Assembly (NCBI RefSeq): GCF_000760295.1
Contig: NZ_JNBA01000027.1
Location: forward strand, 1 to 64,000
Source: Prochlorococcus sp. MIT 0701
GTDB lineage: Bacteria; Cyanobacteriota; Cyanobacteriia; PCC-6307; Cyanobiaceae
Length of the DNA: 64,000 bases
Direction of reading: 5' to 3'
The translations under genes and the position numbers were made by a program. The notes under the pieces were generated by a model that was given only the letters and a program-made list of their open reading frames with translations, ran no database searches and had not been told where the DNA came from. The first letter of the stretch is position 1, and each line of letters opens with the position of its first letter. Of this stretch, positions 11,005 through 13,671 are shown piece by piece.

Positions 11005-11669
11005 TGGCCATCATTGGCAACAGGAGCCCAGGCTTGTTGCAAAGGCGGAGTGCGATCTCCCTTGGCACGGCGACTAATGCTGCGACAGTTCTTGAGATAC
11101 CAACGCCAAGGAATGTCTTGTCCTTGAGAGATACCGATCCTGGTTGTGCTCACAATCGTTGGCGTACCGAAATCAGCCGGCCTAGGTGCCAGCCACAGGT
11201 CATTCTCTCCTGTGACGGCTCTTCTGTCATCGGAGCGATCCAAACCAAAACGACGCGCCAATAAAGCGGGACCCGCAGCGACGCGTTCCGGTTCATCCGG
11301 AAGTGCAATCGCCCTCAACAAAACACCATTAGCCCATTCAGAGCGATCCGTAACCACATTCACGCAGTGGTGAATGCCATAACTCACATACACATAGAAC
11401 CGCCCAGGCTCACCAAACAGCGTTTCGTTTTGCGGTGAGCGGCGGCGATAGCCGTGGCAGGCGGGCTCTGCCTGGGAATACGCCTCCGTTTCCACAATCA
11501 CACCCCAGAGCAAGCTTTCATCGGCTTGGCGTTTCACCAAGCGGCAGCCAATCAATTCGGGGCCCACCACCTCTGCAGGGCGGCAGAAGAAGGATTGAGG
11601 CAGAGCTGGGAAATCCTTGGTGATGTGCTGGGTGGCTATGGGGGTGGCTGGAGCAACAACCTTCTTCAC
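11001..11669 (-). CDS. DNA-3-methyladenine glycosylase (AAG/MPG family)
   Basis: A 222-residue base-excision repair glycosylase. Family landmarks are [14 protein letters not shown] near the N-terminus, VIVETEAY with the catalytic glutamate, [15 protein letters not shown], and LLRAIAL. The start is GTG at 11669 (GTG AAG AAG), 59 bp from the divergent prochlorosin-type gene, so the two share an intergenic promoter region. Codons 1-55 and that promoter were duplicated next to the second precursor gene at 12.8 kb. Downstream it is coupled to pyrB. Confidence 0.93.
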
Positions 11670-11936
11670 CCAAGTCTGACAACGCTGCTTGGAGGAAGGA
11701 CAATTGAATTATCTACATTCTTTCCCTGATGTCAGAAGAGCAACTCAAAGCATTCCTTGAAAAAGTCAAAGCTGACACCAGCCTTCAGGAGAAGCTGAAA
11801 GCAGCTGCTAATTTTGATGCAGTTCTTGCGATTGCGAAAGAGGCTGGGTTTATTATTTCTGCTGATGAAATTAACCAAGCTCAATCCGAACTTTCAGAAG
11901 AACAACTTTCAGAAGAAGAGCTGGAAGGCGTGGCTG
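11505..11936. repeat. Copy 1 of the duplicated mpg-5'/promoter/procA-leader block
   Basis: The first 55 codons of mpg, the 59-bp divergent intergenic region and the leader half of the precursor gene match the block at 12756-13166. The mpg parts differ at only four of 55 residues. Similarity stops where the precursor leader ends (VAG), so the cores are unrelated. Confidence 0.8.
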
Positions 11937-11986
11937 GGAGCTGGAAGGCGTGGCTGTCTTTCAGACAGAAAATTTGTTTTTATTAA
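11729..11986 (+). CDS. Prochlorosin-type lanthipeptide precursor with Nif11 leader (probably frame-disrupted core)
   Basis: An 85-residue peptide whose first about 69 residues are a Nif11-type leader ([25 protein letters not shown], then ELSEEELEGVAG), as in ProcA substrates of the class II lanthipeptide synthetase ProcM. In this frame only 16 residues follow the leader (SWKAWLSFRQKICFY region), with one cysteine, a poor lanthionine substrate. A 19-bp sequence is tandemly duplicated exactly at the leader/core junction (11918-11936 and 11938-11956). After it, the +1 frame stays open to 12137 and encodes three cysteines. The annotated ORF is therefore probably a mutated form of a longer precursor. 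No lanM gene is in the window, so modification would have to act in trans. Confidence 0.8.
   Translation: MSEEQLKAFLEKVKADTSLQEKLKAAANFDAVLAIAKEAGFIISADEINQAQSELSEEQLSEEELEGVAGSWKAWLSFRQKICFY
11918..11956. repeat. 19-bp tandem duplication at the leader/core junction
   Basis: GAGCTGGAAGGCGTGGCTG occurs at 11918-11936 and again at 11938-11956 with one base between. It covers the ELEGVAG codons at the end of the leader. The period is 20 bp, which is not a multiple of three, so it changes the downstream frame. Confidence 0.9.
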
Positions 11987-12137
11987 TGGAAGCTGCAGAG
12001 ACTCGGTGTGTTATGAGCAAGCTTATTATGAGCAGAGAATGGAGATATGGCGTAGGCGAGGGAGAATAAAGTGGGAGAGTGCAACTGGGGATGGGATTGG
12101 AGAATATAATAAGAAAACGGGGAAGTGGGAGAGTTAG
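11957..12137 (+). pseudogene. Out-of-frame core region of the first precursor
   Basis: In the frame one base ahead of the leader, the DNA after the duplication reads LSDRKFVFINGSCRDSVCY and continues EQAYYEQRMEIWRRRGRIKW to a TAG at 12135-12137. If one 19-bp copy is removed, ELEGVAG joins this frame directly and gives a core of about 58 residues. Its length is close to the 55-residue core of the neighbouring gene. It contains serines, threonines and two cysteines after the junction, plus a third if the repeat-encoded GC is counted. Confidence 0.5.
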
Positions 12138-12174
12138 CGGGTGCAACTGGGAACTTTGGAGGAGCGGGGATCCG

Positions 12175-12197
12175 GTTAGCTAGTTAGCTAGTTAGCT
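12175..12197. repeat. 8-bp tandem repeat GTTAGCTA x 2.9
   Basis: Two full copies and one 7-base partial copy of GTTAGCTA lie between the out-of-frame core and the terminator. No function is evident. Confidence 0.85.
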
Positions 12198-12292
12198 CTT
12201 TCTGGTTATACTTTGTGACAAGAAAAGACAGGACTAACACAATAAGAGAACTGTATGTATAAAAATGATGAAAAGCTTACTCACCCCCATTG

Positions 12293-12316
12293 CCCCTGCA
12301 GTGACAGGGGTTTTTT
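12293..12316 (+). terminator. Rho-independent terminator downstream of the first precursor gene
   Basis: CCCCTG/CAGGGG with a 6-base loop is followed by TTTTTT. It lies about 310 bp past the short ORF stop and about 155 bp past the stop of the +1-frame core, so the transcript would include the longer core. Confidence 0.88.
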
Positions 12317-12359
12317 ATTGCTTTAATTACCCCATACCCACCATCAATCAGCATCCGAT

Positions 12360-12661
12360 ACCTGGCACCACTGACAACAAAATAGTCATAGCTTTCACCC
12401 ATCTAGTCGTCTAATCCATCCACAAAAAATACAAGGCAGAGCAAACAAAGCCTCAGCTTTCTTTAGTCCTACATCTATTCATATCCCCTCAACGCAACTG
12501 CCAAAACCTTCGCTCCCTATCACCATCACGGATGCCATTGGCTCGTCTAAATCTCAGCGCCACCTGATGCCACTCCTCTGGGATTTGATTGAGCCGAACA
12601 TCAAATGCAAATGGGAGTTGCTGTTGCCCTGGTGAGACCCGTTTCTTCTTGCTTCTGTTGC
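12360..12661. repeat. About 300-bp direct repeat, copy A
   Basis: From the shared CCTGGCACCACTGACAACAA motif to GTTTCTTCTTGCTTCTGTT this block matches 13372-13671 with scattered substitutions. It includes the 3' part of a minus-strand reading frame. The two copies flank the second precursor gene as direct repeats. Confidence 0.85.
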
Positions 12662-12755
12662 TCCTGCTGCTCTGAACCAATCGCTTCAGCATCCTTGAGC
12701 CCCAGTGGCACTTGGCTGCTCCTTTGGCGTGATGGCGATACGTCCGAGATAACGC
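12489..12755 (-). pseudogene. C-terminal fragment of an unknown protein family, copy A
   Basis: This stretch supplies residues 56-143 of a chimeric open frame that starts in the truncated mpg copy. Its end reads [20 protein letters not shown], then an arginine-rich finish and a stop at 12489. The same C-terminus appears at 13501-13671 and, more diverged, near 39190-39290. Differences between copies preserve the protein sequence better than chance, so it derives from a real gene family that I do not recognise. Confidence 0.5.
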
Positions 12756-12920
12756 CCAAAGCAGGCTTCCATCCGCTTGGCGTTTCACCAACCGGCAGCC
12801 GATGAGGTCAGGTCCAACAACTTCTGCAGGACGCCAGAAGAAGGATTGAGGTAGTGCTGGGAAATCCTTGACGATGTGCTGAGTGGCTATGGGCGTGGCT
12901 GGAGCGACAACCTTCTTCAC
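12756..12920 (-). pseudogene. Truncated duplicate of mpg (first 55 codons)
   Basis: Codons 1-55 of the glycosylase gene (through [15 protein letters not shown]) are repeated here with four amino-acid changes, then homology ends before the catalytic ETEAY motif, so this copy cannot be an active glycosylase. The frame continues into an unrelated fragment to 12489. It is divergent from the second precursor gene with a 62-bp gap, copying the mpg/precursor arrangement at 11.7 kb. Confidence 0.8.
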
Positions 12921-13166
12921 CGAAGTCTGAACAACGCTGCTTGCACAAGAGACAATGAAATGAACGAAGCCCTTTCGCTCAGATGTCAGAAGAGCAACTC
13001 AAAGCCTTCCTGGAGAAGGTCAAAGGTGACACCAGCCTTCAGGAGAAGCTAAAGGCAGCTGCTGATTCAGACGCAGTTCTAGCGATTGCGAAAGAGGCTG
13101 GCTTTAGCATCTCTGCTGATGACTTTGGGAACGCTCAATCAGAGCTTTCTGAAAAGGAGCTGGAAA
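12756..13166. repeat. Copy 2 of the duplicated mpg-5'/promoter/procA-leader block
   Basis: Matches the block at 11505-11936: truncated mpg start, divergent promoter region and precursor leader. It shows how the precursor was duplicated together with neighbouring DNA rather than alone. Confidence 0.8.
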
Positions 13167-13351
13167 GCGTGGCTGGTTCCGGCGGGCTGGCGAGTGTGCT
13201 AGGTATTTGTACGCGCGGGCGGGTCGGGGTTGGTTGCCAACATAACCTATCTGCATTGGAGAAACGCGCCTTTGGGATGTGCAACGCGCCTTCAACCTAT
13301 AAAACGAGGCCGGGGTGTCCGGGGTATGCCCAACATATGCGGGGTAAGTAA
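12983..13351 (+). CDS. Prochlorosin-type lanthipeptide precursor with long four-cysteine core
   Basis: A 122-residue precursor. Residues 1 to about 66 are the Nif11-type leader ([41 protein letters not shown]). The core of about 55 residues starts near [12 protein letters not shown] and holds four cysteines (ICT, VGCQ, GMC, GCPG) plus six Ser/Thr, enough for several lanthionine rings. It ends basic (QHMRGK). ProcA cores that I know of are usually about 13-32 residues, so this one is long. Cleavage probably follows the VAGSGG region, as double-glycine-type leaders do. A synthetase and exporter must be encoded elsewhere. Confidence 0.85.
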
Positions 13352-13371
13352 CGCGTCAATCAGCCTTCAAT

Positions 13372-13671
13372 ACCTGGCACCACTGACAACAAAATAGTCA
13401 TAGCTTTCACCCATCCAACCGCCTAATCCATCCACAAAAAATACAAGGCAGAGCAAATAAAGCCTCCGCATTCTTTAGCCTTACATCTACTTATATCTCC
13501 TCAACGCAACTGCCAAATACTTCGCTCCCTATCACCATCACGGATGCCATTTGCCCGTCTAAATCTCACCGCAACCTGATGCCAGTCTTCTGGAATTTGA
13601 TTGAGCCGAACATCAAATGCAAATGGGAGTTGCTGTTGCCCTGGTGAGACCCGTTTCTTCTTGCTTCTGTT
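13372..13671. repeat. About 300-bp direct repeat, copy B
   Basis: Second copy of the 12360-12661 block. It begins 20 bp after the second precursor stop and ends at the 3' end of the DUF481 gene region. Confidence 0.85.
13501..13671 (-). pseudogene. C-terminal fragment of an unknown protein family, copy B
   Basis: The minus strand encodes [19 protein letters not shown] then EDWHQVAVRF and an arginine-rich end, stop at 13501, almost identical to copy A. The open frame extends to 13746, but those extra codons are merely antisense-frame bases of the DUF481 gene. No start codon belongs to the fragment itself, so it is a remnant. Confidence 0.6.

Follow-up and report, generated by a model that had tools for sequence, protein, structure and literature searches.

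Probable rebuilding of the leader-core junction of a prochlorosin precursor gene by short tandem duplications

The leader-core junction of a prochlorosin precursor gene at 11729-11986 has probably been rebuilt by slippage-type tandem duplications, which reframed and shortened the core. The gene lies in a window of 64 kb, by which the whole stretch of DNA analysed is meant. Short tandem duplications, probably arising by replication slippage, have reworked the junction in two ways. An in-frame duplication of 15 bp lengthened the leader, and an adjoining duplication of 20 bp (or net 19 bp) shifted the frame downstream of it. The leader and the G-S cleavage site stayed intact, while any earlier core was exchanged for the short peptide WKAWLSFRQKICFY, as it would be left after cleavage behind Ser. 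The new core would be able to form at most one lanthionine ring, and an untranslated tail of 305 nt is left behind it. The gene is now probably degraded, in part or wholly.

The precursor gene and its duplicated junction

The features of the precursor gene and its junction are the following:
11729-11986, + strand: ProcA (prochlorosin) precursor gene, 85 aa, with a Nif11 leader ending in LSEEELEGVAG-S and the present core (S)WKAWLSFRQKICFY
11889-11918, + strand: in-frame 15-bp tandem duplication (11889-11903 and 11904-11918; 14-bp exact match, period 15)
11918-11957, + strand: out-of-frame 20-bp tandem duplication over ELEGVAG (11918-11937 and 11938-11957, 19/20 identical)
11954-11968, + strand: small hairpin CTGTC-TTTCA-GACAG where the second 20-bp copy ends, overlapping the mismatching base

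The leader of 11729-11986 matches TIGR03798 (leader_Nif11) with an E value of 1e-25, above the cut-off, and the product also matches PF07862 (E 4.7e-18). It starts with MSEEQL, in keeping with the MS/TEEQL start of Nif11-type ProcA leaders (PMC10783134). The source genome (G000; 2.59 Mb, 53 contigs) contains 20 leader-like matches, namely this gene and 19 further ones, and a single complete class II lanthipeptide synthetase, an intact ProcM-like LanM of 1082 aa (TIGR03897, E 1e-243). A Nif11 leader together with a complete LanM in the genome identifies the gene, by its sequence, as the precursor of a prochlorosin (a class II lanthipeptide with a Nif11 leader) in a genome that has the enzyme for its modification. 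With ProcA of Prochlorococcus MIT9313 and SyncA of marine Synechococcus it has in common the Nif11 leader, the MSEEQLKAF start, the EELEGVAG end, a hypervariable core, dispersed or tandem genes and one distant LanM enzyme. It differs from these in that its junction carries an out-of-frame duplication of 20 bp and its leader is five residues longer; it also has G-S instead of G-G, one Cys and a long untranslated tail.

The leader ends in EELEGVAGS, the G-S variant of the D/EELExxxGG-type double-Gly motif (GG, GA or GS). The variants GG, GA and GS have been described for these proteases, and L(-12), E(-8) and L(-7) of the protease consensus are all kept here (PMC6363468). The position after VAG is G, A or S in 73/73 other precursors, a count that includes L124, the row of which was shifted by the search pattern and which reads VAGG on inspection.

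The initial annotation described a 19-mer over the ELEGVAG codons as repeated with period 20, and this is what the DNA contains: GAGCTGGAAGGCGTGGCTG occupies 11918-11936 and recurs at 11938-11956, with 19/19 identity. Compared as 20-mers (11918-11937 and 11938-11957), the copies differ only in their last base (G/T). In five genomes of the genus, only these two places have the exact 19-mer, and fifteen others are one base off. A paralogue as the donor of the second copy is ruled out by the lack of any other exact 19-mer in these five genomes. Because the 19-mer is unique to the junction, the second copy derives from the first, and the 20-bp repeat is an intragenic duplication. Although the second copy is translated in another frame, it is still 19/19 identical, which suggests that the duplication is probably a recent event; its direction and its age are both inferred. 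Tandem repeats as good as this one were found at only 7 loci in 236 kb of non-procA DNA.

The 15-bp duplication directly adjoins the 20-bp one, ending where the latter begins. It lengthens the leader by five residues, LSEEQ, an insertion that 17 aligned leaders all lack. Of the eight tandem repeats in the whole window, three are located in the transcription unit of 11729-11986. Folding of the junction DNA was less stable than that of shuffles (z +1.3), and no unusual structure was found in the region.

Core length and the frames downstream of the duplication

Four further features bear on the length and origin of the core:
11956-12069, + strand: third frame, VFQTENL...GVGEGE and stop, 37 codons (11956-12066), reached by loss of one 20-bp unit
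11958-12137, + strand: 59-codon frame (frame 0), LSDRKF...GKWES and stop, open, with 2 Cys; the lost core proposed by the initial annotation
12175-12197, + strand: tandem repeat of 8 bp (GTTAGCTA, close to 3 copies) within the untranslated tail, containing stops
12292-12311, + strand: family-type terminator hairpin GCCCCTG...CAGGGG(T) (GCCCCTGCAGTGACAGGGGT) and then TTTTT, 305 nt downstream of the present stop

With its two copies the gene now reads VAG-SWKAWLSFRQKICFY and ends at a stop at 11984-11986, which agrees with the early end and one-Cys core described before. The core of 14-15 aa is the shortest of eleven in the source genome, where the other ten measure 30-67 aa. After cleavage behind Ser, one Ser and one Cys remain in it. 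The terminator hairpin is of a type common to many relatives (for example after L050). Where a terminator was detected in relatives, it mostly lies 16-208 nt behind the stop, with a median near 40 nt, and the larger values mostly belong to the terminator of the second gene of a tandem pair. The 305-nt gap and the unusually short core agree with a core cut short by a change of frame, and they suggest that a longer core existed before the duplication. The untranslated tail at 12060-12160 is also strongly purine-rich on the + strand, with about 2-6 C per 40 bases.

The present short core could instead be a functional one-ring prochlorosin, with the VAG-S cleavage site kept or made by the duplication. 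Its leader and G-S motif are intact, and the frames downstream have no support as genes. One-Cys or Cys-free cores occur in 16/74 precursors, and cores of 10-13 aa exist in relatives. This explanation is nevertheless considered unlikely, given that no core in this genome is shorter and that the untranslated tail is unusually long. A one-ring product is possibly left; that the product has been lost, in part or completely, is rated somewhat more probable than that a useful new one has arisen.

Since 20 is not a multiple of three, the duplication changes the frame downstream, and one, two and three copies read three different frames, with about 37, 15 and 72 codons after VAG. Exact loss of one 20-bp unit gives VAG-F or VA-V, followed by the 37-codon frame that ends at 12069. 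If the net loss is 19 bp, VAG is followed by LSDRKF in the frame of 59 codons that ends at 12137; three copies also lead into this frame.

The initial annotation held that one 19-bp copy was ancestral, that the core then ran LSDRKF...GKWES (59 aa, 2 Cys) and that gain of 19 bp inactivated the gene. Much of its description was accurate. The +1 frame is open for 180 bp (11958-12137) and has cysteines, removal of 19 bp does join VAG to LSDRKF, the joined core of 59 codons is about as long as that of the neighbour (57 aa after VAG), and the terminator at 12292-12311 lies beyond the end of this frame. The length of 59 aa is within the range of the cores of this genome, and the stop would be 155 nt from the terminator, within the range of the relatives. 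Openness over 59 codons is weakly unusual (dinucleotide shuffle, p about 0.016 for either alternative frame), but an alternative frame of at least 59 codons is open in 12/64 precursors. The repeat unit is 20 bp, so that a further loss of 1 bp would be needed; what opens when one unit is lost is the third frame, of 37 codons. Leu would follow VAG, as against G, A or S in 73/73 others. A search of 251 genomes of the family gave no credible homologue of the frame-0 peptide, only weak matches (E 0.01 to 0.07, 2/3 with internal stops), and the peptide belongs to no Pfam family. Codon scoring gave no signal (p 0.25), with a test of little power even for true cores. The proposed shift of frame thus stands in so far as a local duplication reframes the core and ends it early, in agreement with the 305-nt gap; frame 0 as the earlier core and a single ancestral 19-bp copy are not supported and are regarded as unlikely.

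An exact 20-bp duplication followed by a G-to-T change at 11957 would imply an earlier core (V)FQTENLFLLMEAAETRC...GVGEGE of about 37 aa. Such a history fits the true period of the repeat with a single substitution, and base 11957 lies within the small hairpin, which could template the change. On the other hand, Phe or Val would follow VAG or VA, outside the G/A/S seen elsewhere. The third-frame peptide has no homologue in the 251 genomes, and codon scoring gave p 0.63. The probability of this history is likewise judged to be low.

The two reconstructed junctions (VAG-L, and VAG-F or VA-V) are both without the G-[G/A/S] motif that the present VAG-S has. Since the cleavage motif is restored by neither simple reconstruction, there must have been some other difference in the ancestral junction as well. 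Either of the two other frames may have held the earlier core. Apart from the 19-mer itself, the core-region DNA has no relative in the genus, and no relatives were found among viral contigs and phage records.

The initial annotation also offered a slippage switch between two products. Gain and loss of copies would give three different cores, and the frame does differ between one, two and three copies. Such a switch is highly improbable. Only two copies are present, with one mismatch, and the one-copy state (VAG-F or VA-V) would lose the G-[G/A/S] motif and with it a usable product. Loss of one unit would not give the long core, no other precursor has a frame-shifted relative of its core, and no positive evidence for a switch was obtained.

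Duplications in other precursors and the surrounding locus

Short tandem duplications are present in 4 of about 73 precursor genes, where background predicts 0.6 (p about 0.004), an excess that rests on four genes, with a fifth in a precursor of unusual start counted as background. The G003 precursor with the core GTIGGTIVSITC... has a 12-bp tandem duplication that is in frame, whereas that of 11729-11986 is out of frame. The G002 precursor (L023, from a single-cell genome) has an exact 54-bp period within the core, with KRPKRDETAGPLTFACTD twice and the frame unchanged. The C36 precursor of G000 has an 18-bp unit in its core, also in frame. All four, with 11729-11986, thus have a short tandem duplication in or beside the core, and 11918-11957 is the only out-of-frame case among the duplications found in precursors.

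An out-of-frame duplication of the ELEGVAG box could in principle be a recurring one-step means of replacing the whole core while the leader and cleavage site are kept. This is quite improbable. A search for frame-shifted homology in the core DNA of 74 precursors gave five alignments, of which one ran across two cores and was in frame, and no second example of an out-of-frame core swap was found among these 74. The event looks like a local mutation of an ordinary kind, in a gene family that changes fast.

Cores are much longer in the source genome than in the MIT9313-like genome (median 51 vs 21 residues, Mann-Whitney p 1e-5). Long-core precursors of G000 are L008, L009, L010, L011, L035, L041, L048 and the one at 12983-13351 in the window. 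The long cores of G000 often have a tail rich in Lys, Arg, Asp and Asn, and in several cases their stops are still about 30 nt before the terminators.

The gene is part of a larger repeated arrangement:
11504-13500, + strand: tandem-duplicated cassette of an mpg 5' fragment, leader, unrelated core and conserved 3' region, with direct repeats of 176, 172 and 145 nt
12983-13351, + strand: neighbouring ProcA precursor, 122 aa, with one leader copy and a 57-aa core after VAG with 4 Cys

The direct repeats of the cassette are 85-90% identical and flank cores that do not match. No terminator was found after the precursor at 12983-13351. This second precursor seems to be without the terminator region of the first, and similarity in the 3' region resumes beyond the hairpin. 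The same piece of mpg is found beside precursors at other sites of the MIT9313-like genome (G003).

Among the genomes compared, the nearest complete relative is G003, and its precursor cores are presumably those of Prochlorococcus MIT9313. At its syntenic site (pyrB and mpg on one side, 93% identity) the precursor is broken ten bases into the leader. An insertion of about 7.7 kb follows the break (L087:2023-9745), and then a fragment reading DELEGLTEGQKNESNAASCCTEYNPITC. Within the 7.7 kb there are three long open frames whose N-terminal portions are repeated, and at the far end is the remnant of a core containing CC and C. In G002 other genes are present at the corresponding site. A scan of genome contigs with the leader returned only paralogues, and this locus is intact in none of the five genomes of the genus compared.

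Meaning for the divergence of prochlorosin cores

The event at 11918-11957 is a real duplication, probably recent, in a known kind of gene. To our knowledge, how prochlorosin cores diverge so far while their leaders stay nearly identical is an open question. The gene at 11729-11986 is a single case and is probably heading to decay; it would gain weight if both alleles were in use among sister strains. It offers a concrete kind of step, in which a duplication at the junction keeps the leader and the cleavage site and alters everything downstream.
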